A stretch of 57,889 nt of DNA, from positions 1 through 57,889 of the forward strand of contig CAMQVJ010000004.1 in the NCBI GenBank assembly GCA_947038175.1. The letters are read 5' to 3'. This document shows positions 8,351-9,880 of this stretch, one piece after another (position 1 is the first letter of the stretch; each line of letters starts with the position of its first letter). The DNA comes from an uncultured Desulfovibrio sp. GTDB lineage: Bacteria > Desulfobacterota > Desulfovibrionia > Desulfovibrionales > Desulfovibrionaceae. The translations under genes and the position numbers were made by a program. The notes below the pieces were generated by a model that did not search any database, was not told the DNA's origin, and saw only the letters and a program-made list of their open reading frames with translations.

Positions 8351-8677
8351 CTATTTTTTACAACTTGAACTGCAAGAACCACATTGAGAATTGCATGAAA
8401 GTGTACGCTTTACAAAAGGAATAGAAGGTTCAACAACAAATCCCATATCACTCAGGTCAATTGTTACAGCACCGCACTTTTTCATTAAATCTTTGTGAAA
8501 GCAAAAACGATAGCCACTCACTTCATAAGTCATGTCTTCTTCTTGTGCATTGTCAAGCATAAGCTCAAGGCGTGAAGTATTTTCAGCAGGGGCGATATAA
8601 ATACGAATATCTTGTCTTTCATTTTCTTTAAAATGACTTTCAAAATCTGCTATAACCGCTTCACTCAGTGTAATCAT
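8351..8677 (-). CDS. HesB/IscA-like protein lacking the usual first cysteine
   Basis: A 108-aa member of the HesB/IscA-like family (Fe-S cluster assembly or binding fold). It aligns along its whole length with the upstream neighbour at 8810-9139: IRIYIAPAENTSRLELMLDN matches VRVFLAPGG-U-RGPKLSLALDE, AVTIDLSDMGFVVEP matches GVTIDISYMGFTIEP, and both end in a Cys-rich tail (here CNSQCGSCSSSC). The position that is Cys or selenocysteine in the neighbour is not Cys here, so it has diverged from the canonical cluster site while keeping the C-terminal cysteines. The ribosome site is weak. It is probably an old tandem duplicate; whether it carries a cluster is unknown. Confidence 0.88.
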   Translation of the reverse strand: MITLSEAVIADFESHFKENERQDIRIYIAPAENTSRLELMLDNAQEEDMTYEVSGYRFCFHKDLMKKCGAVTIDLSDMGFVVEPSIPFVKRTLSCNSQCGSCSSSCKK

Positions 8678-8809: not shown

Positions 8810-9139
8810 TTAAGAACCGCAAGATCCGCCAGTAGAACAACTTGAGCAAGATGAATCACTAGGATCAGAAGCTAAAGGACGATCGGGTTCAATAGTGAAG
8901 CCCATGTAAGAAATATCAATGGTTACACCACCAATAGTTCCAAGTAATGTCTTGTCGATGCAAAAAGAAAAACCATCAGATTCAATAACGCTATCTTCTT
9001 CGTTGGACTCATCCAGAGCCAATGATAATTTCGGACCGCGTCAGCCACCAGGAGCAAGAAATACTCGAACTGTGGATTTTTCTTTATCTGTAAAAAAGGC
9101 GTCAAGCTCTTTACGAGCGCCATCTGTAAGTTTGATCAT
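8810..9139 (-). CDS. HesB-like selenoprotein (in-frame UGA read as selenocysteine)
   Basis: Starting from the ATG at 9139, preceded by a near-perfect GGAGG ribosome site, the frame reads MIKLTDGARKELDAFF...VRVFLAPGG, then TGA at 9041-9043 (codon 33), then RGPKLSLALDESNEED...FCIDKTLLGTIGGVTIDISYMGFTIEPDRP and a Cys-rich tail (SSCSSCSTGGSCGS), 109 aa in all. The TGA falls where HesB/IscA-type relatives have the conserved cluster-ligand Cys, and protein similarity to the neighbouring paralogue continues without shift on both sides. A hairpin matching the bacterial SECIS pattern follows. HesB-like is an established bacterial selenoprotein family. A start after the TGA would lose the first third of the domain. 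Alternative: a nonsense mutation, less likely given the intact frame and hairpin. Sec decoding also requires selA, selB, selC and selD elsewhere. Confidence 0.88.
9003..9022 (-). promoter_or_regulatory. Bacterial SECIS-like element
   Basis: In the mRNA, UUGG-CUC pairs with GAG-(U)-CCAA: seven base pairs with one bulged U. The 5-nt apical loop is UGGAU. The loop's first G comes 27 nt after the UGA, inside the 16-37 nt range, and a G lies within the first two loop positions, as the bacterial SECIS consensus asks. It sits within the coding frame, as bacterial SECIS elements do. Confidence 0.7.
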
Positions 9140-9346
9140 AATTCCTCCGCCGCTAAAAGCGTAGTTTATTTTGTGTAAAAAGAATTTAAGTTCTGTAGGC
9201 ACTTTTGTCAATGCTTAAAGAACAGAAGAGTGGAAAAATATAAAAAGAAATGATTATTTTCTTTGCAAACACTCCTCTTTATACTAAAATACTTTTACCA
9301 TTTAGGATTTATTTCAATTCTCCCATTATATAAAGGAAAAATCACT

Positions 9347-9880
9347 ATGAAAATTCTCATGAATGACCATGATATAGCAAAAACATTAGAGCGTCTTGCT
9401 TACCAAATCATTGAAAAGCATAGCGATATGGAAAATTTGATTTTACTCGGTATTCAACGCCGTGGCGTCAATCTTTCACAAAGATTAGCAGAAATTCTAA
9501 AAACAAAAACAAAAAGCCCAATAGCCATGGGCACACTTGATATTAATTTATATAGAGACGATTGGACATCTTTAGCTAATATGCCAGCAATCGCCTCCTC
9601 TCAAATCCCCGTACCTATTGAAGGAAAGTCAATTATTTTAGTTGATGATGTTCTTTACACAGGCAGAACCATACGGGCAGCATTAGAAGCTCTTTCAGAT
9701 TATGGGCGCCCAAAATGCATAGAACTCTTGGTTTTAGTTGACAGAGGCCACAGAGAGCTGCCCATTGCCGCAAACTATGTTGGAAAACAAATAAATACCG
9801 CACGCTCAGAGCAAGTGAATGTCCTTGTAAAAGAGCGTGATGGCTGTGACGAAGTACGCCTTTTACACGCAAACGCCTAA
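9347..9880 (+). CDS. pyrR: Bifunctional pyrimidine regulator / uracil phosphoribosyltransferase PyrR
   Basis: A 177-aa type I phosphoribosyltransferase. The PRPP loop is visible in SIILVDDVLYTGRTIRAALE. LILLGIQRRGVNLSQRLAE, GTLDINLYRDDW and LVLVDRGHRELPIAANYVGK are typical PyrR segments. PyrR converts uracil plus PRPP to UMP and in many bacteria binds pyr mRNA leaders to attenuate transcription. I chose the ATG at 9347 (AAGGA about 9 nt upstream) over the long frame from 9263, whose extra 28 residues look like translated leader. No pyr genes are adjacent, so any RNA target lies elsewhere. The gene precedes prmA by 55 bp in the same direction. Confidence 0.95.
   Translation: MKILMNDHDIAKTLERLAYQIIEKHSDMENLILLGIQRRGVNLSQRLAEILKTKTKSPIAMGTLDINLYRDDWTSLANMPAIASSQIPVPIEGKSIILVDDVLYTGRTIRAALEALSDYGRPKCIELLVLVDRGHRELPIAANYVGKQINTARSEQVNVLVKERDGCDEVRLLHANA

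Follow-up and report, generated by a model that had tools for sequence, protein, structure and literature searches.

An in-frame TGA in a HesB-like gene of an uncultured Desulfovibrio species very probably encodes selenocysteine

Introduction

A minus-strand gene in a 57,889-nucleotide stretch of DNA from an uncultured Desulfovibrio sp. (the window) almost certainly encodes a protein of the IscA/HesB family in which selenocysteine (Sec) is inserted at an in-frame UGA codon. A conserved hairpin, the presence of Sec machinery, and the TGA-free state of the gene where selA and selB are both absent lead us to regard it as a Sec-encoding gene rather than a pseudogene. The gene is real and well supported but not new in kind, as HesB-like selenoproteins have been published, including from close relatives since the mid-2000s. 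Specifically, a 2006 survey reported 11 members, among them proteins of D. vulgaris, D. desulfuricans and others (PMC1794560), and a 2007 study describes the recovery of DVU_1382 of Desulfovibrio vulgaris through an independent stop-codon scan (PMC1914089). The surprise implied by the initial annotation is therefore not supported, given that catalogues from 2006-2007 already listed such proteins in Desulfovibrio. More recently, the HesB-like family has been tabulated with the motif UxGP (PMC13188914, 2026). The family member from Methanococcus maripaludis has been established as a selenoprotein by mutagenesis and 75Se labelling, and its disruption mutant shows no nitrogen-fixation defect (PMC11097638).

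Results and discussion

A reading frame hidden by one TGA codon

The initial annotation had described a minus-strand frame with a GGAGG ribosome site that is open except for one TGA and would be missed by ordinary gene calling. Direct reading and translation bear this out. Between the ATG at 9139-9137 and the TAA stop, the TGA at 9043-9041 is the sole interruption, and the ribosome site lies just upstream (Table 1). The table-11 list of open reading frames (at least 80 amino acids) has no minus-strand gene here and offers only a spurious plus-strand frame at 8919-9164 instead. In the read-through product, U falls within VRVFLAPGG-U-RGP, and the motif runs APGG-U-RGPKLSLALDE.

Table 1. Coordinates of the HesB-like gene and associated features in the window
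Feature	Position	Strand	Details and basis
hesB-like selenoprotein gene	8810..9139	-	109 aa, Sec at residue 33, stop TAA 8812-8810; frame read, NF038090, PF01521
In-frame TGA, codon 33, very probably read as selenocysteine	9041..9043	-	First conserved Cys position of IscA; profile alignment to 1r94
Bacterial SECIS-like hairpin	9000..9025	-	Core 9022-9003, loop UGGAU 9015-9011, bulged U 9007
Ribosome-binding site GGAGG	9144..9148	-	4 nt before ATG; direct reading
Promoter-like TTGACA-17-TAAATT upstream of hesB-like gene	9183..9211	-	Consensus match only; such matches occur at chance level
Tandem HesB/IscA-like paralogue	8351..8677	-	108 aa; motif Cys/Sec missing (APAENTSRL), Cys-rich tail kept; NF038090 57.3 bits, below cut-off
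Divergent pyrR	9347..9880	+	Start codon inferred; PyrR profile match; same divergent neighbour in many relatives

The read-through protein matches NCBIfam NF038090 (IscA_HesB_Se) over positions 1-100 of 101 with 99.5 bits, above the curated cut-off of 85, and Pfam PF01521 with a score of 35.8 (cut-off 26.3). With NF038090 it shares Sec or Cys at the HesB motif and a short C-terminal Cys-rich tail; nothing of substance sets it apart, such that the window gene is an individual member of this family. What does differ, in the window and its genus alike, is a bulged U on the 3′ side of the SECIS stem, due to a TCC (Ser) codon rather than CCN (Pro) after GAG. The match to TIGR01911 (HesB_rel_seleno), at 43 bits against a cut-off of 66.35, places the protein outside that subfamily; Sec in a UxGP motif and a HesB-like fold are nevertheless common to the window protein, TIGR01911 and the 75Se-labelled M. 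maripaludis protein. The entries from D. vulgaris and D. desulfuricans (PMC1794560) and DVU_1382 (PMC1914089) come from the same order and likewise have a TGA in a HesB-family gene, the likeness to DVU_1382 being one of gene name and TGA.

The placement of the TGA at the conserved Cys of HesB/IscA-like proteins is also upheld. A profile built from 14 Sec copies matches the solved A-type proteins 1nwb, 2apn, 1r94, 1s98 and 1x0g, and in this alignment Sec33 falls in the Gly-Cys-x-Gly motif of IscA.

Sec machinery and its co-occurrence with TGA copies

The genome from which the window derives (2.73 Mb in 149 contigs, 96.7% complete) carries all four genes that the initial annotation had suggested looking for. 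Profile searches recover selA (595.8 bits), selB (377.7 bits) and selD (290.5 bits), the last with its own single in-frame TGA at SAG-U-G. The tRNA-Sec (selC) is found as well, and ARAGORN also calls it, with anticodon TCA. The joint presence of selA, selB, tRNA-Sec and a TGA-containing selD means that this organism reads UGA as Sec, provided that the whole set is not a relic.

Among 111 relatives with a completeness of 90% or more and no more than 5% contamination, eight lack selA. Seven of these (G011, G013, G040, G060, G068, G081 and G113) also lack selB over the cut-off, and their HesB copies are all TGA-free. The eighth, G099, has both selB and a TGA copy, so the absence of selA there appears to reflect a gap in the assembly. 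Two genomes with selA (G046 and G067) have only Cys in the main copy; thus the Sec form can be lost while the Sec trait is retained. One further genome of the window's own genus, G001, has selA over the cut-off, no selB over the cut-off and no HesB copy; its assembly may have a gap, or else Sec decoding was lost recently.

Exchange of Sec and Cys, foreseen by the initial annotation for codon 33, is evident among 149 genomes of the same genus, family and order. A match to NF038090 is present in 137 of them, over the cut-off in 130 of the 137. The best copy contains a single in-frame TGA in many genomes and no TGA in others, and the same codon specifies U or C across copies. Relatives therefore show TGA or Cys at this position, not random stops. 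Neither of the genomic outcomes that the initial annotation had named as refuting it, a lack of selB/selC or relatives all with a stop or frameshift here, came up.

Some genomes carry additional, divergent copies. G006, of the same family, has nine HesB-like copies (including L061, L067, L071, L073, L075, L076 and L077), several of them divergent. Three contain an in-frame TGA, with the motifs GGUGG, CGUGG and CGURA, and the GCTCTGG hairpin core is also present in L067. Further divergent HesB-like copies with TGA occur in genomes G057 and G017 (L068, L069 and L074). L068 and L069 share the same hairpin and the motif CG-U-(K/R)GS, and the motif of L074 is GCGV-U-SS.

A conserved hairpin downstream of the UGA

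The bulged hairpin with loop UGGAU and a G at +27 that the initial annotation had proposed is present as described. Counting from the base after the UGA, positions +19-25 pair with +31-33 and +35-38, leaving U34 bulged and the UGGAU loop at +26-30. This structure fits the bacterial SECIS criterion as worded in PMC1088965, which calls for a hairpin just 3′ of the UGA whose small apical loop includes a G. Against shuffled sequences the window hairpin alone is borderline over a 32-nt stretch (z = -1.9) and not significant over 45 nt (z = 0.07). No match was returned in the window by Rfam at gathering thresholds, which is not a fair test of bacterial SECIS elements, as these are short and varied. 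The hairpin by itself is weak evidence, and it is the comparison among copies that makes the case for it compelling.

Because the copies were collected by a protein profile and not by the hairpin, this comparison is not circular. Its informative sites are the synonymous ones only, since LALDE is conserved in both the TGA and the Cys sets. All 51 distinct TGA copies read GCT CTG GAY GAG (one with GGA for GAY), and all 51 form a 5-bp stem closing a G-rich 5-nt loop at a constant distance from the TGA, whereas none of the 31 Cys copies has the stem (Fisher p = 2.7e-23, with relatedness ignored). Likewise, the Ala codon is GCT in 51/51 TGA copies versus 2/31 Cys copies (Fisher p = 3.7e-20, again with relatedness ignored), the Cys genes using GCC, GCG and others. 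At the fifth pair (columns 24/38), G-C is replaced by U-A in 9 of 39 aligned sequences and no sequence is unpaired, which amounts to a compensatory change. The covariation score of 0.202 is above those of all 500 shuffles, and slid registers reach at most 0.076. In the window and its genus, RNAfold accommodates the TCC that replaces CCN after GAG by means of the bulged U in the 3′ arm. A single occurrence of the GCTCTGGAYGAG core in the entire genome implies that its other selenoprotein genes, selD for example, rely on different hairpins.

Judged by these nucleotide patterns, the hairpin is under strong nucleotide-level constraint in TGA copies only, and the comparison shows that UGA codon 33 is under selection for Sec decoding together with its hairpin. 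The comparison thus supports decoding of this codon as Sec through SelB and tRNA-Sec, which we regard as very probable, with direction from a hairpin that has its loop at +26-30.

That the UGA is read as another residue such as Trp, or by unspecific read-through, is exceedingly improbable and was rejected on conservation and co-occurrence with SelA/SelB: homologues have Cys and not Trp at this codon, only TGA copies carry the hairpin, and the genome has the complete set of Sec genes, in whose absence HesB copies are as a rule free of TGA.

Only marginally better is the prospect that the TGA is a true stop in a decaying or mis-sequenced gene whose work is done by the neighbouring paralogue. The standard code does interrupt the frame, and the adjacent paralogue is intact. 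However, the same codon is TGA in 51 distinct copies from many genera, with the hairpin every time, and the supposed working copy is the one that has lost the motif Cys. Moreover, purifying selection acts on the sequence beyond the TGA. Comparisons within the genus give a dN lower than dS on either side of this codon, although several dS values are saturated and exact ratios are unusable. After the TGA, for example, L052 and L053 give a dN of 0.092 against a dS of 1.752, dS in such comparisons being partly saturated. For the partner gene, L053 and L055 give 0.243 against 2.833. Conservation and co-occurrence with SelA/SelB led us to reject the pseudogene as well.

Possible function of the Sec protein

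A-type carriers bind iron or a cluster through the Cys of the motif and a pair of C-terminal Cys residues. The window protein has the motif residue and the C-terminal Cys residues of these carriers, and shares with IscA, SufA and ErpA the fold family PF01521 and the first ligand position. Sec stands in for the first of the three binding Cys residues, and the Cys-rich tail would supply the others; in an anaerobe, Sec33 and the C-terminal Cys residues could together make up an iron or Fe-S site that includes a selenolate. The likeliest role would be to bind, deliver or protect iron or a labile Fe-S cluster, the selenolate acting in redox or as a ligand that exchanges readily. We lean modestly towards such a carrier role. 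Sec is not essential for the role of the fold, because several Desulfovibrionaceae keep the Cys form alone.

A serious rival for function, to which we assign a smaller though substantial probability, is that the selenoprotein acts in redox chemistry or in selenium or heavy-metal handling, the IscA fold reflecting ancestry only. The IscA, SufA and ErpA equivalog models give just 24.8, 27 and 32 bits, far below their cut-offs of 150.6, 136.2 and 117. A poly-Cys tail and recurring sets of Sec, Cys and Cys-less paralogues are also unlike an ordinary IscA, and most uncharacterised selenoproteins are presumed to be redox proteins (PMC13188914). It is the retention of the ligand position and C-terminal Cys residues of A-type carriers that speaks against this rival and for iron or Fe-S carriage.

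Gene neighbourhood and Cys-less paralogues

Gene neighbourhoods were compared at 80 named loci on genome contigs, some of which end too early to judge. The loci include Mailhella, Desulfovibrio, Bilophila, Halodesulfovibrio, Nitratidesulfovibrio, Pseudodesulfovibrio, Humidesulfovibrio and others. A divergent pyrR lies at most 1 kb from the Sec gene at 43 of the 80 (among L110-L189) and in the window, and just past 1 kb at three more. This divergent layout of pyrR and the Sec-containing hesB is conserved over many Desulfovibrionaceae genera for no obvious reason.

The usual neighbour of the Sec gene in relatives is a Cys paralogue. In the window's genus, the neighbouring paralogue lacks the motif Cys, reading APAENTSRL in the window and APGEQSSRL or APGNISSRL in others. 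The initial annotation had held that homology to this neighbour runs through the TGA. The two proteins do align throughout the region, but the alignment leaves a gap of one residue opposite Sec, and the paralogue has no Cys there. The paralogue therefore does not itself support Cys/Sec exchange; other genera do.

Cys-less paralogues beside or near a Sec copy occur in at least three lineages with differing motifs (L053, L055, L056 and L110-L112; L144, L151, L152 and L154; L029, L033, L039 and L187). In Nitratidesulfovibrio, the D. vulgaris lineage, the neighbour reads PRGSKGP or PRGSRGP and its Cys-rich tail is also gone. An additional copy in a third set of Desulfovibrionaceae carries SFMSESGP or a similar motif; one row of this set, L029_1400, was labelled Cys owing to a Cys just before the motif. 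The Cys-less sequences form separate tree groups, with well-supported branches that require two changes or more, most deep forks being unresolved because the protein is short.

Speculatively, a Cys-less paralogue could form a hetero-oligomer with the Sec protein as its structural partner. In the window's genus, and separately in Nitratidesulfovibrio and the third Desulfovibrionaceae group, a Sec-HesB protein and a dedicated Cys-less paralogue might then make up an asymmetric complex in which a chalcogen ligand comes from the Sec subunit alone, the partner playing a structural or regulatory part. We consider this arrangement possible but rather unlikely. The asymmetric pairing is nonetheless the less expected feature of the system and the only lead that goes beyond the cited literature.

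Conclusions

The window gene is a well-controlled example of a real gene hidden by a stop codon, and of a SECIS element that strongly fixes synonymous codons. Because Sec, Cys and Cys-less versions often stand side by side in Desulfovibrio-type bacteria, these organisms lend themselves naturally to the question of why Sec should replace a Cys that binds a cluster.
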